From Chitinivibrio alkaliphilus ACht1 (GTDB lineage Bacteria; Fibrobacterota; Chitinivibrionia; Chitinivibrionales; Chitinivibrionaceae), in NCBI RefSeq assembly GCF_000474745.1, contig NZ_ASJR01000003.1:1-64000 (forward strand): DNA of 64,000 bases, read 5' to 3'. The notes under the pieces are model-generated. The model searched no databases, was not told the DNA's origin, and was given only the letters and a program-made list of their open reading frames with translations. The position numbers were made by a program, and so were the translations under genes. This document shows positions 12,696 to 24,084 of this stretch, piece after piece. The stretch's first letter is position 1, and every line of letters starts with the position of its first letter.

Positions 12696-14153
12696 ATGAA
12701 GCGAGTCTGTACAGTAGTTCTTGTATCGGTAATGTTCTCTGTTGCTCTTGGGCAGGAACAAGTAACCCTTACAGATCTCTTATCCCACGCCTTTTCTCAT
12801 TCGGAGGAATTGGCCCTGTTACGTAAGGAGCGGGAGCATGTGGCTCTGCAGGAAAAGGAGCATCGGGCTTCCGGGCTTCCTCAAATAAATGCATCCATGG
12901 CATATATCCACGCACCGAGATCGTATAACCCCTATGACCTATCCATGGATATAGAGGGGAGTCTTGCGGAGGAACTGGGAAATCCTGAAGAGGTTTTTCT
13001 GCAAAATCCCGACTATACTGTAACTCCCGGGGATATCCTTGCCTATGAGAATGCAATGGGAATTGCCCAAACCTTTGATGGAGTGCTTGCAGAGCTTGGG
13101 GGATTCGATTTAAGCCCTCCCAAGAACACCTTGAACTGGGAAGTAAAGCTTGAGCAGGTGATTTTTGCACAGGGGAAAATTAAAACAGCAGTAGAGATTG
13201 CCCGTATTGCATACGAAAATATTGATATGCAAATAGAGGCTGAAAAACTTGCCATCGCAAAGGATGTGCGGGAAAAACATCATACGTATCTTGTTGCACA
13301 GAGTAATTATGAGGTTCGACAAAGTGATGTAAAACTTTCCCGGAGAACCCATGAGATTTCCCGTATTCGCTTTGATACAGGTCACGGTACGGAGCTTGAT
13401 ACATTAAATAGTAAGTATCGCCTGAAGCAGTCTGAATCATCCCTCCGGGAAGCTGCCATGAATAAGCGGTTAGCAAAAAAAGATCTGCTCACCCGCGTCT
13501 CCATGGATTATGCTGATGATGAGGTGGTGATTCTGGGGCAGCTCACGGAGCCGGAATTTTCCCTCGATGTGAAAACCGCCCGAGGACGGATGAAGGAGGG
13601 TAATCGCACCCTCAAAGTATTGGATGTACTTGCTGAGATGCGAGACAAACAGGTAGATATGAGCCGGACGGACTTTTTTCCTTCCGTGGGAGCTTTTGCT
13701 TCGGCAGGACAGACATCGCTCTATGATGGAGTGGATGATATTGATTTTGGATGGAATGTTGAGCTTGGGGTTGGAGTACAGATCCCAATTTTCCATGGGG
13801 GGCAGCGTCGTCATCGCATGGAGCAATCACGAGTGAAGCGCCGGAAAGTGACAAGCCAGTACGATCAGGTGCTTCGCCAGCTTACCTTAGCTCTTGAGGC
13901 GGCCTATGAAACCTATGAACTTGCTCAGGAAGAGTTAGTTGAAGCACGGGATATGATTCGTCTTACCGAGCGAAGTGTCTCTGTGTCGGAAGTTGCCTAT
14001 GAGATGGGGCAGATCAGCCAGTTGGAGCTTGATCAAACAAAACAGCAGTACCGTATGTCCCGTCTTGCAGAAAATGCCGCCCTTGGAAAGCTGAACGCGG
14101 CGGTTGCACAAATAGAAAGCCTAATTGGCGATACAACCCTTATCGAATTATAA
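12696..14153 (+). CDS. TolC-family outer membrane efflux protein
   Basis: This is the outer-membrane channel of a tripartite efflux pump, extending through the periplasm to meet the inner-membrane RND transporter. The 485-residue product has a signal peptide ending near V-A-L-G-Q and two OEP-type helical/strand repeats rich in coiled-coil sequence. Examples are L-R-K-E-R-E-H-V-A-L-Q-E-K near residue 45 and the long helix around E-A-A-Y-E-T-Y-E-L-A-Q-E-E-L near 405. No lipobox is evident. It is the first gene of the operon, 12 bases before the adaptor. Substrates cannot be inferred. Confidence 0.85.
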   Translation: MKRVCTVVLVSVMFSVALGQEQVTLTDLLSHAFSHSEELALLRKEREHVALQEKEHRASGLPQINASMAYIHAPRSYNPYDLSMDIEGSLAEELGNPEEVFLQNPDYTVTPGDILAYENAMGIAQTFDGVLAELGGFDLSPPKNTLNWEVKLEQVIFAQGKIKTAVEIARIAYENIDMQIEAEKLAIAKDVREKHHTYLVAQSNYEVRQSDVKLSRRTHEISRIRFDTGHGTELDTLNSKYRLKQSESSLREAAMNKRLAKKDLLTRVSMDYADDEVVILGQLTEPEFSLDVKTARGRMKEGNRTLKVLDVLAEMRDKQVDMSRTDFFPSVGAFASAGQTSLYDGVDDIDFGWNVELGVGVQIPIFHGGQRRHRMEQSRVKRRKVTSQYDQVLRQLTLALEAAYETYELAQEELVEARDMIRLTERSVSVSEVAYEMGQISQLELDQTKQQYRMSRLAENAALGKLNAAVAQIESLIGDTTLIEL

Positions 14154-14165
14154 GAGAGGTTTATT

Positions 14166-15197
14166 ATGAAAAGATATCTTTGCGTGTATATGGTTATTGT
14201 ATTGAGTATGCTTGGTTGTTCTTCTCAAGAAGGGCAGGAAGAGTTTCGCAGTATTCAAGATATTCAGGATGAACAGGGGATCCCCGTAAGTGTTTCTGAA
14301 GTAGAGCGGACATCCTTGAAGCAGGTTGAAGAGATAGGCGGTACTGTAAAGGGGCATCGTCAAACGTATATTTCCACTGCTGCAGCGGGCATTGTAAACC
14401 GAATCTCCGTCTCCCCCGGTGATTATGTACAAAATGGGCAAGTGGTTGCCTCAATGCGGTTTGAACAGGGGTCTCCCATAGCTGTTGCGCAATCTGCGTA
14501 TGATCATGCAAAACGCTCCTATGAGCGGGTGCAGCGTCTGCAGAAAGAGGGGGCAGCTTCATCCTCAGAGCTTGAAGCGGTACGCGCCCAATATGAAAAT
14601 GCAAAACATTCACTGGGGCAGGCACGGGTAGCACAGTATCTTCGTGCGTCTTTTAATGGTACTGTGGTGGATGTCCTTGAAAAAGAGGGCTCAAAAGTTG
14701 ATACTCGGACCCCCGTAGTGCTCATGGCTGATATGTCACGTGCAAAGATTGAGTTGCAAGCGAGTGAGCGAACCTATGAACGTCTTCAAAAAGGACAACG
14801 CGCCTTTTTGTTTCATGGAGAAGACACTCTCTGGGGGGAAGTAACGGATCTTTCTTTGAGCGCCCATCCCTTAACACATAATTTTACGGTTACAACTCAT
14901 TTTGATAATGAAGAAGACAATCTTCGTTCCGGTATGTATAAACAGGTGCGTCTTGTGGTCCATCAGAAAGATGATGTTATTACCATGCCCTTTGACCTTA
15001 TCCAATACGATTTAATGGGGAACCCCTATGCGTATGTTATTGAAAATGGACGCGCCAAAAAACGAGATTTAACTCTCGGTGTAAGCGATGGGATGTATTA
15101 TGAAGTTGTCTCAGGATTATCAGAGGGAGATCAACTTGTCGTGGCGGGAAACAGTCGCCTGTTTTCTGATGCAGCTGTAAATGTAGTGAACCAGTAA
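14166..15197 (+). CDS. RND efflux periplasmic adaptor (membrane fusion) lipoprotein
   Basis: The 343-residue product begins with a lipoprotein signal (L-S-M-L-G-C, Cys18 lipidated) followed by the adaptor layout. A barrel-sandwich half begins G-G-T-V-K-G-H-R-Q-T-Y-I. A helical hairpin follows (A-Y-D-H-A-K-R-S-Y-E-R-V, then E-L-E-A-V-R-A-Q-Y-E-N-A), then the second lipoyl half with A-S-F-N-G-T-V-V-D-V, and a beta-barrel plus membrane-proximal domain. It bridges the TolC-like channel and the RND transporter encoded on either side, 12 bases from each. Confidence 0.9.
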   Translation: MKRYLCVYMVIVLSMLGCSSQEGQEEFRSIQDIQDEQGIPVSVSEVERTSLKQVEEIGGTVKGHRQTYISTAAAGIVNRISVSPGDYVQNGQVVASMRFEQGSPIAVAQSAYDHAKRSYERVQRLQKEGAASSSELEAVRAQYENAKHSLGQARVAQYLRASFNGTVVDVLEKEGSKVDTRTPVVLMADMSRAKIELQASERTYERLQKGQRAFLFHGEDTLWGEVTDLSLSAHPLTHNFTVTTHFDNEEDNLRSGMYKQVRLVVHQKDDVITMPFDLIQYDLMGNPYAYVIENGRAKKRDLTLGVSDGMYYEVVSGLSEGDQLVVAGNSRLFSDAAVNVVNQ

Positions 15198-15209
15198 GAG
15201 GAGCAAAGA

Positions 15210-18200
15210 ATGGATATCATAAAAGCGAGTATACAACGACCATTGATGATGAGCATGGTCATTCTTGCCCTGTCCATGTTTGGCTACGTGGCATGGAGTG
15301 ATCTTGCCATCGACCGTATGCCGGAAATGGATCTTCCCTACGTTACCGTGCGGGCTGTGTATCCCGGGGCAACCCCCCAGGAAGTGGAAGACAACATTCT
15401 GCGGCCCATGGAAGATCAGCTGAGTACCATTGGCGGTATTCGTCATATTACTTCCTACGGTATGGAAAATGCGGGGTTCATTGTACTTCAATTTGAAGAT
15501 GAGATAAATGAAGATGATGCAGCAAATGAAGTGAAAGATAATCTTGATCTGATTATGAATGATTTTCCCGACGACATGGAATCGCCCATTGTGACAAAAT
15601 TTGACCCCAATGACGTTCCCATTGTTACCCTTGCTGTGACGGGCGATGTCGATATGGAAACCTTGCGTCGCTATGTTGACCAGAATATTGGAGACCGTTT
15701 TGGACGTATCAACGGTGTGGCCAATGTAGAAGTTACGGGGGGGCTTGAACGGGAGATATTGGTAGATCTTGATAAGGAAAAGATGGCCGCTCATAATCTC
15801 TCCATATTTCAAGTGATGCCGCTTTTGGAAATGCAAAACTTTTCTCTGCCTGCTGGGCGGATTATTGGAGAGCGAAAAGAGTATTCTGTACGAACTGATG
15901 GGCGATTTCAGAATCTTCGTGAAATTGAAGATATTCGTATTCCCATACATAAGAGCCTTGGAGATCATGAAGCCTCCTATCATATTCGCCTTCGGGATAT
16001 TGCCACTGTAAGTGATTCCACAGCCTTAGTTCGTGATGGAGTGCGTTTTCAAGGGCAGGATGCGGTGCAGGTAGCTATTAATAAAAGCTCCGACGGAAAT
16101 ACTGTGGAAATAGCCGATGGGATCCTTGCCCTTGTTGAAGAGATTCGTCACGAACTTCCTTCCGGTATGGATATGGTGGTTGTTGAAGATAAGTCTGATT
16201 TTATTCGTGATACCATTGCTGGTACCTACGAAAATATTCTCATGGGTATTGTTCTTACTGGAGCCATCCTCTTTCTCTTTCTTTTCGATTGGCGTTTAAC
16301 CCTCATTGTGGGTATCACCATGCCGGTCTCCTTGATTATGGCGATGATCGGGGTGGGAGCCATGGGATTTACCCTCAATACGGTTGTTATGATGGCTCTT
16401 ACAATCTCCGTGGGTGTTTTGGTTACCAACTCCATTGTGGTGATTGAAAATATTGTACGACATAGAAATACCGGACAGGATGTGCGTCTTGCCTCTGAAG
16501 AGGGAGCTCGGGAGATCTTTACCTCCGTATTGGCATCAACGCTCACAAATCTGGCTGTGTTTATTCCCATTGCTAATACCACGGGGATTGTAGGGAACGT
16601 TTTCCAATCACTTGGTCTCACCATTGTTTTTGCAACCCTTGCCTCCCTATTTCTTTCATTTACCTTGGTGCCCATGCTTTCTTCACGCATGTTGAAGCCG
16701 AAGGATAAGACAAATCATGACGAGCTGCACATGGTGGATAAGGTATTACTCTATGTGGATCGTTTTTATGGAAATTTTCTCAACACGCTTTTGGAGCACT
16801 CATGGAGTAAGATTGGGGTGGTTCTTGGTACAATCCTCTTCTTCTTTTTCACCATGACTCGTATTGCTCCACAGTTGGGTAATGAATTTATGGAGTCGGT
16901 GGATCAAGGATATATTTCCATAAATATAGAGCTTCCTCCAGGTACTCCCTACGCAGTAACCGAGTCTGTTGTCGCAGATATTGAGCAACGTTCTCAGGAT
17001 GTTCCTCATTTGCGTGAGATTTCTTCAAGTATTGGAGGCGGGGGTACAGAAACAGGGGTACAGTATGCAGAAGTGCGTCTTCGGCTTACGCCCGAAACAG
17101 AGCGAGATAAATCTGCCTTTGATATTGTTAATATGATTCGTCCGCAGTATGCCGATTTCCCCGACGCGCAAATCACCATTGCTGTAACAGACGATATGGG
17201 CGGCGGAGGTGGCGGTGATATTGTATTGGAGCTCTATGGTGACAATATGGATGAACTGCTAGCCTACTATGAAGAGGTAACACACCGTATGGAACATGAG
17301 ATTGGGGGGTTGACAGATTTTGGAAGCTCCTGGAAAGGTGAGCAGCCGGAGATCTTTATCCGCCCCAAACGTGATATGCTTGAACATTACGGTCTTCAGA
17401 GAGATTTATCAGCCTCCATGGCCGTTCAAAATACGGCAGCTCTTCTTCGCTTTAACATCACCGGTAATGATGATGCGGTATTTACTGAGGACAACGAAGA
17501 GTATCCCATACGCATACAGCTTCAAGAACGCTATCGAAAGAATATTCATGATATTCAGACCATGGATGTTCTGACGCCGCGGGGCTATGTGCAGTTGCAA
17601 GAATTATTCCATATTGAAACAACTCAGGCGGTATCAAATATTACGCGAAAAAATCGTCAACGAATGATCCAGGTTACGTGCAATATTATTGAAGGTGATC
17701 TTGGGGGAAAAGTTGGGGAGATTGAAAATATGCTTGAGACCATAGAGGGGTTTGAAAACCTTTCCTATGCCTTTGGTGGGTATCAAGAGTTGAATGAAGA
17801 AACCAATGAGCAGCTTCTTTTTGCAGGTACCCTGGCGATTATTCTGACCCTGATGGTTTTGATTGGGATTCTTGAGTCTGTAAAAATGGGGGTTGTCATA
17901 TTTCTCACCATTCCCCTTGGGTTCATTGGAGTTGTCTGGGCGCTCTTTCTTACGGGTAATAATATCTCCATGATCTCAAGTCTCTCCATGATTATGCTCA
18001 TTGGTATTGTGGTGAATAATGCGATACTCCTTATCGATTATGCGCGGATTCAGCGGGTAAAACGAGGAATTACCGCTCGACGTGCCATTGTGGAGGCTGC
18101 GGAAATGAAACTAAAACCGATTTTAATGGCAAACCTTGCTATCATTATTTCCATGGTTCCCATGGCCCTTGCCATGGGTGCTGGAGGAAGTTTTCGTGCT

Positions 18201-18314
18201 CCCTTTGCAGTTACAGCCATCGGTGGTATTATCGTTTCAACGGCCTTGACCTTTTTTGTCATACCCATTCTCTATGTTGCGACAGCTTCTAAGGAGGTTG
18301 TCCCGCAGGAGTAG
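15210..18314 (+). CDS. RND-family inner membrane efflux transporter (AcrB/HAE1 type)
   Basis: The 1034-residue transporter has 12 predicted membrane helices in the 1+5+1+5 pattern, with two large periplasmic loops. The N-terminal I-K-A-S-I-Q-R-P is the usual HAE-type start. The first loop contains the family signature V-R-A-V-Y-P-G-A-T-P-Q-E-V-E. The proton-relay helix 4 region reads T-I-S-V-G-V-L-V-T-N-S-I-V-V-I-E-N. Normal HAE1 proteins have an Asp-Asp pair there (G-L-V-V-D-D-A-I-V), and here the positions read V-T-N. Residue use in the proton path may therefore differ. A glycine-rich stretch (M-G-G-G-G-G-G-D) lies near residue 670. It forms a pump with the two preceding genes. Confidence 0.9.
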   Translation: MDIIKASIQRPLMMSMVILALSMFGYVAWSDLAIDRMPEMDLPYVTVRAVYPGATPQEVEDNILRPMEDQLSTIGGIRHITSYGMENAGFIVLQFEDEINEDDAANEVKDNLDLIMNDFPDDMESPIVTKFDPNDVPIVTLAVTGDVDMETLRRYVDQNIGDRFGRINGVANVEVTGGLEREILVDLDKEKMAAHNLSIFQVMPLLEMQNFSLPAGRIIGERKEYSVRTDGRFQNLREIEDIRIPIHKSLGDHEASYHIRLRDIATVSDSTALVRDGVRFQGQDAVQVAINKSSDGNTVEIADGILALVEEIRHELPSGMDMVVVEDKSDFIRDTIAGTYENILMGIVLTGAILFLFLFDWRLTLIVGITMPVSLIMAMIGVGAMGFTLNTVVMMALTISVGVLVTNSIVVIENIVRHRNTGQDVRLASEEGAREIFTSVLASTLTNLAVFIPIANTTGIVGNVFQSLGLTIVFATLASLFLSFTLVPMLSSRMLKPKDKTNHDELHMVDKVLLYVDRFYGNFLNTLLEHSWSKIGVVLGTILFFFFTMTRIAPQLGNEFMESVDQGYISINIELPPGTPYAVTESVVADIEQRSQDVPHLREISSSIGGGGTETGVQYAEVRLRLTPETERDKSAFDIVNMIRPQYADFPDAQITIAVTDDMGGGGGGDIVLELYGDNMDELLAYYEEVTHRMEHEIGGLTDFGSSWKGEQPEIFIRPKRDMLEHYGLQRDLSASMAVQNTAALLRFNITGNDDAVFTEDNEEYPIRIQLQERYRKNIHDIQTMDVLTPRGYVQLQELFHIETTQAVSNITRKNRQRMIQVTCNIIEGDLGGKVGEIENMLETIEGFENLSYAFGGYQELNEETNEQLLFAGTLAIILTLMVLIGILESVKMGVVIFLTIPLGFIGVVWALFLTGNNISMISSLSMIMLIGIVVNNAILLIDYARIQRVKRGITARRAIVEAAEMKLKPILMANLAIIISMVPMALAMGAGGSFRAPFAVTAIGGIIVSTALTFFVIPILYVATASKEVVPQE

Positions 18315-18324
18315 TGTAGTAGTG

Positions 18325-18349
18325 CGGCGGAGAGGACACCTCTCCGCCG
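18325..18349 (+). terminator. Strong GC-rich hairpin between pump operon and TetR gene
   Basis: A perfect 11-base stem (18325-18335 with 18339-18349) and a 3-base loop follow the RND stop by 10 bases. No run of T follows (GTATATAATATT), so it may act as a partial terminator, a 3'-end stabiliser or an attenuator that lowers regulator expression. The AT-rich sequence after it could also supply a promoter for the TetR gene. Confidence 0.45.
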
Positions 18350-18393
18350 GTATATAATATTAATGTCTATAACTTTTTATTGAGGTATGGGTA

Positions 18394-19059
18394 ATGGAAA
18401 GACGAAAGAAACGGATCTCAAAAGTCCGGGATATGAAAATAAATCTTATTCTCGATGCTGCCTTAAAGGTGTTTTCAGAATGTGGGTTTCATGATACCCG
18501 CCTTGAAGACATTGCCCTGGAGGCAGGGTTTTCAAAGGCGTCATTGTATAATTACTATGAGGATAAGGAGTCAATATTTCTCAATGTGGCCATACGTGAA
18601 TATGATATGCTCTTTGATAAAATCGGGTGTGGCCATCTTGCTCTTGATAAAGGTGCGCCCATAGAGGAAAATCTCCGTCGATTTTTTACCACGGTGTTTC
18701 GTTCCTTTGGAGAGCATTTTGCTTTCATCCTCGCCATGGAAGAGTTTCATGTGTTTAAACTAATGAGTTCGTATTTTGCTCGGGATAGTGAAAAGCAGAT
18801 GAAAGACGCATACTTGAAGTCAAAACAAGATTTTAACAATCTGCTTCTTGATATCATATCTCATGCACAGCAGAATGGTGAAATTGGGTCTTCCCTGCCA
18901 CCGGAGCGACTCACATCTCTTATTCAAACGCTCGTTTTAGGAACCTTAAAGGTGTGGAAAGAAGATCGTGTTATAGAACGTGAGATTCCTGAAACGGTGG
19001 AGGAGCTTCTTATATTTATCCGTGAAGGATTTATTATAGAAAAAAAGGTGCAGGAGTAA
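18394..19059 (+). CDS. TetR/AcrR-family regulator of the RND pump
   Basis: The 221-residue protein has an N-terminal TetR helix-turn-helix at about residues 20-65 (L-E-D-I-A-L-E-A-G-F-S-K-A-S-L-Y-N-Y-Y). A basic tail precedes it (E-R-R-K-K-R-I-S-K). The C-terminal ligand-binding domain is helical and unassigned. It is the last gene of the pump cluster, 79 bases after the RND gene and past a hairpin, so it most likely represses the upstream pump promoter and is relieved by pump substrates. A terminator overlaps its stop codon. Confidence 0.85.
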   Translation: MERRKKRISKVRDMKINLILDAALKVFSECGFHDTRLEDIALEAGFSKASLYNYYEDKESIFLNVAIREYDMLFDKIGCGHLALDKGAPIEENLRRFFTTVFRSFGEHFAFILAMEEFHVFKLMSSYFARDSEKQMKDAYLKSKQDFNNLLLDIISHAQQNGEIGSSLPPERLTSLIQTLVLGTLKVWKEDRVIEREIPETVEELLIFIREGFIIEKKVQE

Positions 19060-19094: not shown

Positions 19095-19307
19095 TTAGAA
19101 TTCAAATTCTTCTTCTTCACCAAGATCATCATCGCCCTCTTCTTCAATACCGAAATCATCTTCCGGGGTTGGCTCTACTTCAGGGGCTGGAGCTGGCTCT
19201 TCAATTTGCTGAATCTGATCATCAACAGGGGGCTCCATATCGCCACCGCATCCAACAAAGGCTACCAATAGAGCAAATAGGGCTGTTAGCATAAGGCACT
19301 TTTTCAT
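19095..19307 (-). CDS. Small acidic, proline-rich lipoprotein
   Basis: The 70-residue product starts with a clear lipoprotein signal (L-V-A-F-V-G-C-G-G, Cys20). The mature 51 residues are almost all Glu, Asp, Pro and Gly, with P-A-P-A-P-E-V-E-P-T-P in the middle and an acidic end (E-G-D-D-D-L-G-E-E-E-E-F-E-F). Such chains are disordered and could bind cations or act as a spacer. An AAGGAG ribosome site lies upstream. It is monocistronic as far as I can see, convergent with the TetR gene. The function is unknown. Confidence 0.7.
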   Translation of the reverse strand: MKKCLMLTALFALLVAFVGCGGDMEPPVDDQIQQIEEPAPAPEVEPTPEDDFGIEEEGDDDLGEEEEFEF

Positions 19308-19518: not shown

Positions 19519-20703
19519 TCACGAATGAGTCGCGATTCGGGTCACTTCTCGAAAAACGCAAAAACGCACAGCGAGAAAGGCCGTACAGAAAAGAAGTATT
19601 ACCAAAATGTATACGGTTGGGTGAATGAGTGGAGTGGAAAGAGTAAAGGCTTCTAAATATGGACGAAGTACGGTGTTTACCATTCCCACAATGATAAGGG
19701 CGGCTCCGCAGATTGGAAGAAAGAGGAGGGTAAAGGTTCGCACATAAAAGCGAGAAAGGGTCTGCGGGGCATACCCTAAGAGAATGAGAGTGCGAATGCT
19801 ATTTTCAGAACGGTCAATAATGTATTGGTAAGTTAGAACAAATATAAAGAGTGCTAAGAGGATAATTCCAAGAGCAAGAAGCCCCATCACAGAAAATAGA
19901 AACGACGCAATTTGGGAAATCCGACGGGCATTAAATAGCGGTTGTTCTGTCTCATAGCCCGCTGATTCTAAAAAATCGTGGAGGGTCGTACTTGTTGGAT
20001 CTGGCGTTATAAGGAGGAGTCGGGTTGCCTCCACCTCTTTTTGAGAACCGTAGGTTGCATTTGCCCAGCGCAGAAACGATTCCGGTACGAGAAGGGTATT
20101 AAATGAGTCGGTAAAACCTCGAATGCGACCGTGAAAAGAGTCGCTTTTACCTGCACCGCGTAGACGGATTCGAAAGGGGATCTGGGTGACAAGATCGGGA
20201 GGCAGTTGTGGGAGTCCCTGTCCCTGTGAGAACCCAAAATTGTACAGGTTAAGATATTGTCGCGGCAGAAGAATATCAATGGTGTCACCGGCCTCTTTCC
20301 ACTCCCAGTTGTTCGGTGTGTTGGGGAGCACTGAATCTGGGAGGGATTCAAAGAAGAGTTTTGTTGACATAGTTGGAAGGAGATCTCCAAGGCCGGTAAA
20401 GGCGGTTACCTCAAAGAGATTTCTCCGAAAGGGAGCTGCGGCGTTCACTGCTTCGTGGTCCTTTAAAGCCCGTTGTTCTTCCGGGGAAAAAGCTGTATTC
20501 ATAACATCAGACACAGCGAGGGTTGCTGCAGGTTTGTGGATGACCAGAGTTTCCTGTTGCTCCTGTGGTATGTCAAAGGCTTTTTGAATATCAAGATAGA
20601 GCTGTAGGGTAAGAAGGAGCAGTACTATTCCCGTAAGGGTTCCCACGGATGCTGCGGTAAAATGGACGAGACGAATTTCTCGAAACAGAAGGGTACGTAT
20701 CAT
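19519..20703 (-). CDS. FtsX/MacB-type ABC permease
   Basis: The 394-residue protein has one membrane helix near the N-terminus (about residues 14-36), a large periplasmic domain (about 40-260), and three membrane helices toward the C-terminus (about 265-290, 315-340, 360-385). This is the FtsX-like topology of mechanotransmission ABC proteins rather than an import channel. It overlaps the ATPase gene by 4 bases, and the ATPase overlaps a ZnuA-like binding protein by 4 bases, so the three are one unit. MacB/LolC-type proteins couple ATP hydrolysis to periplasmic conformational change; the cargo here is not known. Confidence 0.75.
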   Translation of the reverse strand: MIRTLLFREIRLVHFTAASVGTLTGIVLLLLTLQLYLDIQKAFDIPQEQQETLVIHKPAATLAVSDVMNTAFSPEEQRALKDHEAVNAAAPFRRNLFEVTAFTGLGDLLPTMSTKLFFESLPDSVLPNTPNNWEWKEAGDTIDILLPRQYLNLYNFGFSQGQGLPQLPPDLVTQIPFRIRLRGAGKSDSFHGRIRGFTDSFNTLLVPESFLRWANATYGSQKEVEATRLLLITPDPTSTTLHDFLESAGYETEQPLFNARRISQIASFLFSVMGLLALGIILLALFIFVLTYQYIIDRSENSIRTLILLGYAPQTLSRFYVRTFTLLFLPICGAALIIVGMVNTVLRPYLEAFTLSTPLIHPTVYILVILLFCTAFLAVRFCVFREVTRIATHS

Positions 20704-21341
20704 AGGGTAAGAACCTTTGCGCTGTCTGTATAGGAGGATTCATCGAGACTGGTAAGAATGAAGTTTGCTCCGTTTTTCTCACATACATGAATAATAAGAT
20801 CAAGGGCCGTGTTCGTATTTGCCTGATCAATATGGCTAAAGGGTTCATCGAGAAGGAGTGTGGAGAAGGGTTGACAAAGTGCTCGACAAATTGCACAGCG
20901 CTGCTTCTGTCCAAAGGAGAGTGTTCGTACCGGTGCGTCAAGAAGAGATGCTATGTGTAATTGGTGTGCATATTGCTCTATCTCTTCTTGTGAACAAGTG
21001 TCCGTAAGGCGGTTCTTGATGATGATATTTTCACGTACCGTGAGAGAGTCAAAGAGGCGGAGCCCCTGAAATACACAGGAGATCTGAGTTTGTCGAAGGG
21101 GCGCCCACTCTTGGGGCGTAATGGTACGAATGTCATGATCATCCATGGTAACTTTTCCGCTATAGTCGTGGCGTACACCGTAGAGGATAGAGAGAAGGGT
21201 CGTTTTTCCTGTTCCTGAAGCAGCACGAATTATGTAGTTGTGATCCCCGTGGAGAGTACACGTTTTGCCCCAGATAGAACTTTCTTGAACGGCTATCTCA
21301 CGCAGAGGGTCAGGAAGGACATTTGACAAGCAGATGTTCAC
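20700..21341 (-). CDS. ABC transporter ATP-binding protein (LolD/MacB-like)
   Basis: The 213-residue ATPase shows Walker A (A-A-S-G-T-G-K-T-T), Q-loop (C-V-F-Q-G-L-R-L-F), signature (L-S-F-G-Q-K-Q-R, with F-G-Q-K in place of the usual G-G-Q-Q), Walker B (L-L-L-D-E-P-F-S-H-I-D) and a short C-terminal part. The position equivalent to the H-loop reads T-S-L-D-E, without His. That could reduce hydrolysis or reflect divergence. It sits between and overlaps the FtsX-type permease and the ZnuA-like gene. Confidence 0.8.
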   Translation of the reverse strand: MNICLSNVLPDPLREIAVQESSIWGKTCTLHGDHNYIIRAASGTGKTTLLSILYGVRHDYSGKVTMDDHDIRTITPQEWAPLRQTQISCVFQGLRLFDSLTVRENIIIKNRLTDTCSQEEIEQYAHQLHIASLLDAPVRTLSFGQKQRCAICRALCQPFSTLLLDEPFSHIDQANTNTALDLIIHVCEKNGANFILTSLDESSYTDSAKVLTL

Positions 21342-22243
21342 TGCGTCTGCCCTTTTAAGCCGGTATAAACACTTTTATACAGATGCTCATAAAAGGGGAT
21401 AATCCCATTTTGAAACCCTTCCGCAGCGGGAACTCCCAGGGGCGGCGTAATAAGCGAAACACCATGGGCCGTACAGAGAGAGTCTATTGTTCCTCCGGGG
21501 TTCCATCGATGCATGACAAGGGAGAATTCACCTGCCGTAAGGCCCGTGATAAAACGGCTGCTATCGGCACTGTCCCAGTCTGATTCATGAGGAAAACGAT
21601 GGGTAATGAAGAGGTTGATGTCTTCAGCAAGATAGGCGTACGCAGGATCCATGAGAGCTGTTTCAAAACGGGCCAGCTGTGCGTACTTTGTTCCAAACGT
21701 TCTTTGCAGGGCACGCATCTCTTGTCGAAATGATTGAAAATTTTGGGAAATTGTTTCTGCATATGCAGGGTAGAGTCGTTTGAGGTCCCTCTGAAGTGTG
21801 TATGCCATGGCAAGAATATTTTGTGGAGAAAGCCAGATGTAGGGGTTGGCAGAGCCAGCAGTGTCGCGTAATACCGCCGGCGAAGGAGCTCCTTCGTAGT
21901 AAGAGCGTGAGATATCAATTTCGACGGCGTGGAGGTTGTGGCGACGAACATGCGTAAAGAGTTGGTCTTCAGGTATGAGGCGTGCAAGGGTGATGACTGC
22001 ATCACTGTGCGGAGCCTTTCCAGCAATCCACTCTTTTTTTGTGCGAAGCTCTTCCGCTAAGGTTTCAATCGTTGTATAGTCATCGGCGGGAGAGGATACT
22101 TCAACGGGCGTGCGTTCTGTGAGTTCTTCCGCAAGGTGTGCTATAAATATATGATGGGTGAGCAGTTGCTTTGGAGCACCAGCCTCGTGAGCTCTATCTG
22201 AACAGCCAATACATAAAAGGAGAAGGATAAGTATATATCGCAT
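21338..22243 (-). CDS. ZnuA-like (cluster 9) metal-binding lipoprotein
   Basis: The 301-residue product has a lipoprotein signal (L-L-L-C-I-G-C, Cys14) and resembles the ZnuA/TroA cluster 9 substrate-binding family. The block N-P-Y-I-W-L-S-P-Q-N matches the conserved N-P-H-x-W-x-D-P region, with Y where the metal-binding His normally is. The backbone helix after it is typical (A-Y-T-L-Q-R-D-L-K). A histidine pair (L-T-H-H-I-F-I-A-H) occurs near residue 30. Several canonical ligands appear changed, so the bound ion, or whether one is bound at all, is uncertain. It heads an operon with an ATPase and an FtsX-type permease, not a ZnuB channel, which is unusual. Confidence 0.65.
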   Translation of the reverse strand: MRYILILLLLCIGCSDRAHEAGAPKQLLTHHIFIAHLAEELTERTPVEVSSPADDYTTIETLAEELRTKKEWIAGKAPHSDAVITLARLIPEDQLFTHVRRHNLHAVEIDISRSYYEGAPSPAVLRDTAGSANPYIWLSPQNILAMAYTLQRDLKRLYPAYAETISQNFQSFRQEMRALQRTFGTKYAQLARFETALMDPAYAYLAEDINLFITHRFPHESDWDSADSSRFITGLTAGEFSLVMHRWNPGGTIDSLCTAHGVSLITPPLGVPAAEGFQNGIIPFYEHLYKSVYTGLKGQTQ

Positions 22244-22338: not shown

Positions 22339-24084
22339 ATGAACCGCAAAAAACATAAAACGGGTGTGTATCGGACAGAGTATGATGAGGTTGTGTCCCT
22401 GCCGGACGGAAATAGCCCGGTTCTTCTTGGTTCCGGTGTTATTACGGGTATTCTCGGGCAGGGTGGATCAGCTGTGGTGTATCGCATCTGGAATGAACAA
22501 TTGGGTATTTACCGTGCGGTAAAACTTCTGCGTCCCACCGCTAGTATGGATAGCCGGGAACGCTTTGCCCGAGAAATAAAAATTCTTGCACAGCTTAATC
22601 ATCCGAACATTATCAATGTGCACTCTGTGGGTGAGTGGAAGGGGTTGCCCTACATTGAGATGGATTATGTTGACGGTGCATCCTTAGAACAGCTTATTCA
22701 AGAAATGGGGCCCTTTCCTCTGAATGTTGTTCTTGCCATGGCTCTCTTTATTGCTCGTGCCCTTGATTATACCCATAGCCATAAGTATAAAATTCGAAAT
22801 GTCGAGTATATCGGCTTGTTACATCGTGATTTGAAACCGGCTAATGTGCTCTTACCAAAACACGACGTGCTTCGACTTACTGATTTCGGTGTTGCTTCTT
22901 TTAATACCGTGACTATTACAAGCACAAGTCAAACGGGGCGTGTCACCGGTTCTATGCAGTATCTTGCACCGGAGCAATTGGGTGACGGCATTGTAGACCA
23001 CCGTTCTGATATTTATTCTTTTGGATGTATTTTATATGAAATGGTCACAGGGGAGAAAGCCTTTCCCGAGCGGCACGTGGCTAAGCTGGTGAAGCAGCGG
23101 GTACAAAATAATTATGTTCGGCTTTCAAAAAAGACAAAGAAAACCCCCCGTGTACTGACCAATCTTATTGAGTCGTGTATGAGTCTTAACCCGTCGGGCC
23201 GACCATCCTCCATGAAGACCATTCTTTCATATTTGGAAACCATGTATCGCCGGGTGGAAGATCGACGCCCAGAGTCTATTATTCGAAGCTTTATAAATGG
23301 AGAAGCCATTTCAAGCAAATCGAAAATTAGTGGCATCCATCAAAAAATAAGTCATGGAAGCCGTTTTTTCACCACGGTGCAAGGGTTTTTCTTTGGTGCG
23401 GTGAGTATTGCCTTTCTTGCCAGTCTTCTCGTTATCTTTTTACATTCACCGCGATCTTCCCAGCATGATGAGGACTCTTTTTCCATGGCAGAATTTCGCC
23501 GCCAGTCGGGTGGGGGGGCATCGGCGCAGCCTCGTGAAAACCCTATTTTAGATAGTCTCATGAGTCGTTTTGATACCCGTGATACCGTTGCGGTAATCTC
23601 AAAACTTGATAGTGACGGCCATTATGAGGAGTTGCGGGAGGTGTTGCAGCGCCTGCCCCTCGAACTTCGGGCACGTACGGGAATGCGTGTTCGAAACCAC
23701 CGGGCCATTATCGCCTTGGGGGGAGAGAGTTACTCTTATTACAGTAATAATTTTATCAGTGATGGAGAGTACATTTATGATAAGGGAACCTTTCTCTTTG
23801 AACAAGGAGAGTATCAGCGTGCGCTTTGGGTTCTTCGCGATGCCTTAACTACTCCCGCCCTGTTACAGAATGAACAGGAGTTTGTGATTAATGTTCGGCA
23901 TCAAATGTCTCGGGCTAGTACGAAAATAGCCCAGCGCACGGGGCTTGAACGGGATTATCGGACTGCCTATGATCAATGGGATACCTTAGCACAGCTGATG
24001 AGTGAACGACCGTATCTCCCTCTTTATGAAGAAGCGCAGGAGCGCAAAGACAATGTATTACAAGAACTCGAGGAGCTTTTTTGA
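22339..24084 (+). CDS. Membrane-anchored Hanks-type Ser/Thr protein kinase
   Basis: The 581-residue protein has a kinase domain at about residues 30-300, with glycine loop G-I-L-G-Q-G-G-S-A-V-V (37-47), Lys62 in A-V-K, catalytic H-R-D-L-K-P-A-N (162-169), D-F-G (182-184) and A-P-E (210-212). All key residues are present, so activity is expected. One membrane helix (about 348-369) follows, then a C-terminal extracytoplasmic part of about 210 residues, helical, with no PASTA repeats and possibly TPR-like. Its ligand is unknown. It is the first gene of a plus-strand run and overlaps the RNase D start by 4 bases. Confidence 0.9.
   Translation: MNRKKHKTGVYRTEYDEVVSLPDGNSPVLLGSGVITGILGQGGSAVVYRIWNEQLGIYRAVKLLRPTASMDSRERFAREIKILAQLNHPNIINVHSVGEWKGLPYIEMDYVDGASLEQLIQEMGPFPLNVVLAMALFIARALDYTHSHKYKIRNVEYIGLLHRDLKPANVLLPKHDVLRLTDFGVASFNTVTITSTSQTGRVTGSMQYLAPEQLGDGIVDHRSDIYSFGCILYEMVTGEKAFPERHVAKLVKQRVQNNYVRLSKKTKKTPRVLTNLIESCMSLNPSGRPSSMKTILSYLETMYRRVEDRRPESIIRSFINGEAISSKSKISGIHQKISHGSRFFTTVQGFFFGAVSIAFLASLLVIFLHSPRSSQHDEDSFSMAEFRRQSGGGASAQPRENPILDSLMSRFDTRDTVAVISKLDSDGHYEELREVLQRLPLELRARTGMRVRNHRAIIALGGESYSYYSNNFISDGEYIYDKGTFLFEQGEYQRALWVLRDALTTPALLQNEQEFVINVRHQMSRASTKIAQRTGLERDYRTAYDQWDTLAQLMSERPYLPLYEEAQERKDNVLQELEELF

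Follow-up and report, generated by a model that had tools for sequence, protein, structure and literature searches.

A ZnuA-like putative lipoprotein without metal ligands, encoded with an H-loop-less ATPase and an FtsX-type permease in Chitinivibrio alkaliphilus ACht1: a candidate Type VII ABC system with an exchanged partner

Type VII ATP-binding cassette (ABC) systems have a common fold, work by mechanotransmission and owe their function to a partner protein, and several of them are proposed to extract lipid-like substrates, according to PMC12646458. Two zinc-regulated systems, Vibrio ZrgABCDE and Pseudomonas PA4063-PA4066, are built from a split ATPase and a permease with four transmembrane helices, for which PMC9820375 and PMC11481552 propose zinc import (ZrgA) and pyochelin-cobalt export (PA4063-66). 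The present analysis concerns a three-gene operon, or trio, in a 64,000-nucleotide stretch of Chitinivibrio alkaliphilus ACht1 (contig NZ_ASJR01000003.1, positions 1 to 64,000), hereafter the window, which corresponds to contig C3 of a 2.59 Mb source genome that is 96.65% complete. The trio spans 19519-22243 on the - strand and reads ZnuA-like lipoprotein, ABC ATPase, FtsX-type permease. The solute-binding protein (SBP) of the trio belongs to a branch that is named SBP2 here.

21338..22243, - strand: ZnuA-like (PF01297) lipoprotein, SBP2 branch without metal ligands, 301 amino acids, probable lipid-anchor Cys14 (LCIGC)
21338..21341, - strand: 4-base overlap GTGA of the lipoprotein stop and the ATPase start
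20700..21341, - strand: ABC ATPase, 213 amino acids, GTG start; Walker A AASGTGKT, signature SFGQ, Walker B LLLDEP, D-loop FSHID, no H-loop His
20700..20703, - strand: 4-base overlap ATGA of the ATPase stop and the permease start
19519..20703, - strand: FtsX/LolCE-type permease, 394 amino acids, four transmembrane helices and a periplasmic domain; RQYLNLYNFGF motif common to Bacteroidales

The original prediction had described three overlapping genes for these proteins; the coordinates proved exact, and both junctions are 4-base overlaps. The lipoprotein matched ZnuA (PF01297) at 2.2e-13 and 50.7 bits (cut-off 29) and no other Pfam family above cut-off, the ATPase matched ABC_tran at 6.5e-26, and the permease matched FtsX (PF02687) at 5.2e-06 and 27 bits (cut-off 25.5) and no other family. 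Elsewhere in the source genome there are three further ZnuA matches, each stronger than that of the window lipoprotein, and five further matches to the FtsX domain, of which one scores below its family cut-off. With moderate confidence, the trio is interpreted as a Type VII (MacB/LolCDE/FtsEX-like) ABC system in which the lipoprotein partner has been exchanged and which probably does not import metal. Since the metal ligands and the import channel are both missing, metal import is unlikely, and on the Type VII features set out in PMC12646458, the reading that fits best is an envelope machine whose partner has been exchanged.

Comparison with described systems revealed several partial likenesses. 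A Bacteroidota operon has homologous ATPase and permease genes in the same order with the same family motifs, but its first gene encodes a DUF4836 lipoprotein where the window has a ZnuA-like one. The predicted LolE/LolC fold of the permease and the LolD-like ATPase recall LolCDE, whereas the trio has one permease gene instead of two and lacks the H-loop His. MacB and Escherichia coli YbbAP-TesA have the Type VII fold and the partner-protein logic in common with the trio; the partner here, however, is ZnuA-like and not MacA/TolC or an esterase, and MacB is one fused chain. Vibrio ZrgABCDE and Pseudomonas PA4063-PA4066 likewise combine a periplasmic protein with an ATPase and a MacB-type permease from separate genes, but ZrgA and PA4063 have a ferredoxin-like fold and bind zinc, unlike the ligand-less ZnuA-like protein of the window.

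Direct assignment to a described system was rejected in four cases. LolCDE proper was discarded on the ATPase score (87.4 bits against 307.75 for the LolD equivalog) and the single permease gene in the operon, and FtsEX proper on 97.4 bits against 264.85 for the FtsE equivalog. MacB proper does not fit the separate ATPase and permease genes, which are fused in MacB, and the nearby adaptor-like gene (14166-15197, by eye) belongs to a resistance-nodulation-division (RND) set on the other strand. An ordinary ZnuABC importer was discarded because the operon has no ABC-3 (PF00950) channel, its permease being FtsX only, and because the metal ligands are gone.

The window lipoprotein could be aligned to YfeA and other metal SBPs, most strongly at residues 127-219. 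Relatives were detected at E<=0.001 in 17 of 60 related genomes, beyond E 1e-30 only in G001, G002, G003, G004 and G008, and matches were also obtained in Azospirillum, Vibrio and Fusobacterium records (16 records in total, four of which were opened); a search of viral contigs with the window SBP gave no match. As judged from their sequences, the lipoprotein and its nearest relatives are a side branch of ZnuA, SBP2. All ten aligned SBP2 members (one row being a fragment) match ZnuA at E<=0.001, and in all ten the metal ligands are missing. The invariant residues are D93, R100, E108, D110, W137, D153, P159, I165 and N168. The alignment columns that we take to be metal ligands are those of ZnuA-type structures. 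Alignment with six canonical sequences showed that the window SBP has Tyr (NPYIW) for the His of the second ligand position and Asp (MDPAY) at the third, while the fourth site reads HRW; the first-ligand region aligns poorly, yet contains no His in an HxY context. The N-P-x-x-W-L-S-P frame with Tyr for His that had been noted earlier is present as NPYIWLSP, and the loss extends to the other ligand positions and to the whole SBP2 branch, which is annotated as zinc-binding although its ligands are gone.

In a phylogenetic tree, the window SBP and the five remaining SBP2 proteins of Fibrobacterota form one clade (support 100/98), in which the end branch of the window SBP, at 1.5, is the longest, against 0.32-1.01 for the others. 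The signal sequence of the window SBP ends in a lipobox-like LCIGC, by which the protein is probably lipid-anchored. When the N-termini were read by eye, seven of nine SBP2 relatives were without such a motif, one (L030) was ambiguous with FCAC, and the N-terminus of the last (L032) was missing.

The usual position of SBP2 genes is an operon with a ZnuB channel. In six of the nine relatives with genomic context (G001, G003, Azospirillum, two Vibrio and Fusobacterium), SBP2 directly follows a ZnuB-type permease, and the same operons hold a first binding protein (SBP1), an ATPase and a DUF6162-type protein. Five of the six permeases were called by PF00950, and the sixth (L027) was recognized by eye because it resembles L025; the DUF6162-type protein is annotated in Azospirillum, matched by profile in L035 and recognized by eye elsewhere. 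G002 and G004 show SBP1-SBP2 with no ATPase or ZnuB within the stretch fetched, and G008 begins at a contig edge. The source genome carries a corresponding operon on contig C7 (L035 4018-7601), composed of DUF6162, SBP1, ATPase and ZnuB (channel gene at L035 4018-4902) and followed by a hisB-looking gene, with no SBP2. The only SBP2 of this genome is the window lipoprotein, and the sister genomes G001 and G003 keep theirs after ZnuB. The C7 operon ends at ZnuB at the place where the sisters have SBP2. SBP2 has thus left its ZnuB operon in this genome and has diverged, and it probably carries a lipid anchor. The window lipoprotein is an orthologue of the second SBP in the tandem arrangement DUF6162-SBP1-ATPase-ZnuB-SBP2, from which the trio differs in having no ZnuB channel and a probably lipid-anchored SBP2.

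The ancestral operon is itself a recurrent znu-like arrangement with a ligand-less second SBP after ZnuB (L028 1423-6845, L025 1008-6795, L026 1669-8338). It carries DUF6162-type and DUF4198-type proteins and occurs in Fibrobacterota, Vibrio, Fusobacterium and Azospirillum (L024). No paper using the name DUF6162 was found in the literature library searched.

The same operon is the basis of an alternative, in our estimate unlikely, in which the lipoprotein would continue to work in trans with the ZnuB of contig C7, be it as an accessory or as a second binding protein, and would stand before the ATPase-permease pair by an accident of rearrangement. The position of the orthologues after ZnuB agrees with this, as does the retention of SBP1, ATPase, ZnuB and DUF6162 on C7, and the SBP2 branch is ligand-less alongside ZnuB too. 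However, the two 4-base overlaps, the probable lipid anchor and the long branch fit a new partner, and the genomic site was also counted against this alternative. A serine/threonine kinase gene (22339-24084) adjoins the trio in divergent orientation and is followed by an exonuclease gene; in G001 and G003 this pair is conserved, but the trio is absent and a different gene stands in front, so the trio at this site is particular to the lineage of the window. The proposal that the set is not a metal importer stands in part: ligands and channel are missing from the trio, but a ZnuB is encoded elsewhere in the genome and SBP2 orthologues commonly follow one. The original prediction had regarded a ZnuB channel pairing with the lipoprotein as decisive against it; a ZnuB-like channel is present, which weakens the prediction in part, and its operon lacks SBP2.

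The second gene of the trio belongs to an ATPase family with characteristic motifs. The window ATPase, 41% identical over 200 amino acids to a Bacteroides ATPase, has TSLDE at the expected position of the H-loop His, as had been noticed before, and the absence is general: no member of an alignment of 97 ATPases (67 from Bacteroidales, 29 others and the window ATPase; 6 of 73 Bacteroidales open reading frames (ORFs) outside 196-239 amino acids were left out) has His at the H-loop column or its two neighbours. A D-loop His is found in all 97, and the first Walker A Gly is replaced by Ala or Ser in every one. All 97 keep the Walker A Lys, the Q-loop Gln, the signature Ser and Gly, the Walker B Asp and the catalytic Glu. 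Since the catalytic Glu is kept, the family is expected to hydrolyse ATP and would not be a dead ATPase.

As a control, a motif pattern was applied to all loci examined and found 145 ABC-like ORFs, 115 with a D-loop His and 30 others. The H-loop pattern flagged six of the 115, namely four ABC-F-like ORFs and two (L147, L080) in which the match, inspected by eye, was a chance one outside the H-loop. The four, presumably ABC-F-like from their motifs, combine a D-loop His (PTNHLD) with a normal H-loop, so a D-loop His alone is not unusual. Among the 30 other ABC ATPases of these loci, the pattern recognized the H-loop His in 25, and inspection by eye showed it in the remaining 5. In the tree, the family was separated from two outgroup ATPases with support of 100/98, and the window ATPase falls at an open fork inside it, by which direct descent and transfer from Bacteroidota are not told apart. 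The H-loop His is commonly regarded as belonging to the switch for ATP hydrolysis, and its absence from the complete alignment makes the need for it directly testable. Compared with the single SBP trio, this Bacteroidota family of ATPases without the H-loop His is the more robust and more general result.

The ATPase-permease pair is rare in the phylum of the window, Fibrobacterota, and common in Bacteroidota. The permease profile matched 1 of 167 genomes of the phylum, the source genome itself, and a single-protein search added one degenerate match (G026, E 8e-4, 5 internal stops). A genome scan found 230 relatives, and the best 80 were kept, which are Bacteroidales and other Bacteroidia to judge by their titles; among plasmid records, the profile found one, from Bacteroides finegoldii, with DUF4836-ATPase-permease. 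In these 81 loci, the called order was DUF4836-ATPase-permease in 60; the remaining 21 comprise 19 that differ in a called ORF and 2 without a called permease ORF, the 19 pooling contig edges, overlapping frames and real differences and including the plasmid record, which is annotated with the full order. Relatives of the window SBP or of SBP1 were found in none of the 81 loci. An even sample of Bacteroidota gave matches in 11 of 395 genomes, with DUF4836 adjoining the pair in 7 of 8 regions fetched and the eighth ending at a contig edge. In the order of genome G299, 41 of 198 genomes matched, and 12 of the 26 short loci show DUF4836 upstream. These counts make the pair the core, with DUF4836 as its most frequent partner. 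Regarding the recurrence of the gene order, which had been left to be checked and whose single occurrence was to count against the prediction, the complete SBP-ATPase-FtsX set was found only here, but the pair recurs widely and mostly with DUF4836 first, which argues for partner exchange and against an annotation accident.

The Bacteroidales loci (L042-L121, e.g. L108 5825-9194) represent a conserved operon of a DUF4836 lipoprotein, an H-loop-less ATPase and an FtsX permease, and a lipobox pattern is present in 41 of 43 DUF4836 proteins. DUF4836 (PF16120) had no match in the source genome and 40 relatives (0 of 41 genomes), and no paper using the name DUF4836 was found in the library searched. 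In one annotated Bacteroides locus (L041 9064-11724), the pair is followed by a protein that combines a TonB plug with an MG2 macroglobulin-type domain and bears the annotation of a TonB-dependent receptor plug protein.

Structure models were built for the permease (42 sequences, the window permease and 41 others) and for DUF4836 (43 sequences), with rows thinned by similarity and length and L041 left out. The permease model (predicted local distance difference test score, pLDDT, 84) has four transmembrane helices with a periplasmic domain between the first and the second. Its best match in the PDB was LolCDE chain E (LolE-type; VIA-align Z 18.4, root-mean-square deviation (rmsd) 8.0, 352 aligned), followed by LolCDE chain C (Z 14.9), Mycobacterium tuberculosis FtsX (14.8) and MacB (14.5); the YtrF and BceAB permeases were also among the matches. 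The high rmsd against LolE suggests that the domains of the model are turned differently. A LolE-like fold with FtsX-fold Type VII topology is therefore predicted, and the MacB/LolC topology proposed earlier is borne out by the model. The permease is 28-31% identical to Bacteroidales permeases and has the unusual motif YLNLYN in common with them. The DUF4836 model (pLDDT 89) was closest to Treponema TP0453 (Foldseek E 4e-06, Z 10.1, rmsd 5.1, 222/510 residues), and lower matches to TiME, RseB and DcrB had Z of 6-7, near background.

In the proposed mechanism, the core, a member of the Bacteroidota-type family, would consist of two copies each of ATPase and permease, in which ATP binding and hydrolysis would move the periplasmic domains by mechanotransmission while nothing is pumped into the cytoplasm. 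Where the Bacteroidota operon has DUF4836, the trio would use a ZnuA-type protein that is metal-blind, probably lipid-anchored and descended from a gene displaced out of a znu-like operon. The trio would then probably act on the cell envelope and not in zinc import; as a guess, its cargo may be a membrane lipid or a lipoprotein. The two 4-base overlaps and the ATPase and permease motifs common to the Bacteroidales pairs were counted in favour of this interpretation, as were the LolE-like permease model, the ligand loss, long branch and displacement of SBP2, its lipobox-like signal, the absence of DUF4836 from the genome and the TP0453 match of the DUF4836 model. A more detailed version is put forward only tentatively: the ZnuA-type protein may have been captured as a lipid-anchored Type VII partner replacing DUF4836, with its solute-binding fold now a client or carrier in mechanotransmission, and the ATPase family would work without the H-loop His, for which the invariant D-loop His, which should face the ATP site of the other subunit, may substitute in trans. 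Type VII machines are told apart by their partners, and a natural swap from DUF4836 to a ZnuA fold, if true, would show how a partner is gained. The comparison further brings to light this family of ATPase-permease pairs, whose members occur in gut Bacteroides as well as in other Bacteroidota.

Several observations weigh against partner exchange. The SBP-ATPase-FtsX order was seen in one genome only. Of 14 wider regions from the order of G299, the 13 that extend short loci without a visible DUF4836 had none next door, while the fourteenth (G601) had one, so an adjacent partner is not obligatory; four of the 13 (L174, L175, L178, L179) were without a called ATPase, although one was found in the short loci L159 and L161 corresponding to L174 and L175. 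Profile comparison of DUF4836 with SBP2 revealed no homology, so any common role would be by position only, and the TP0453 match spans less than half of DUF4836 at 6% identity. As for the anchor, Cys stands at -3 of the window SBP lipobox in place of the usual Leu, a lipobox pattern search flagged none of the SBP2 N-termini, and the Cys pair FCAC in the L030 signal implies that a lipid anchor may not be new.

It is also conceivable, though we judge it quite improbable, that the function of the trio is zinc or metallophore handling, as with ZrgABCDE and PA4063-PA4066. The precedent described in PMC9820375 and PMC11481552 ties MacB-type permeases to metals, and SBP2 originates in a znu-like operon. 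Nevertheless, the lipoprotein has no metal ligands left and no ZrgA-like domain match in Pfam, and no Zur-like box with up to three mismatches could be detected in the window, a weak test for this phylum, since the consensus is that of E. coli. Moreover, the same core pairs with DUF4836 in Bacteroidota, and the annotated Bacteroides locus shows no metal gene except the TonB-plug protein. A literature search combining 'FtsX-like permease', zinc, 'substrate-binding protein' and Zur found no paper. Least probable is a sensing device, which had been offered as an option and for which nothing was found in particular support: the lipoprotein would bind a ligand and the permease relay the signal, as BceAB does to a kinase, with the kinase at 22339-24084 as the possible receiver. 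The structural matches include BceAB permeases, and the kinase gene lies next to the trio in divergent orientation, but conservation of the kinase-exonuclease pair in G001 and G003 without the trio indicates that this neighbourhood is not obligatory.

Around the preferred Type VII trio, a few further genes could be described. A small gene for a 70-amino-acid acidic, lipoprotein-like product with a VGC motif (19095-19307, - strand) lies 211 bases 3' of the permease on the same strand and may be co-transcribed with the trio. On the + strand, positions 12696-19059 of the window hold an RND efflux set composed of an outer membrane protein, an adaptor-like protein and an AcrB-type pump, followed by a TetR regulator. 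In G002 (L194 7522-9444) and G004 (L195 2145-4066), the exonuclease gene that stands near the trio in the window is followed by genes that look by eye like lolC and lolD.

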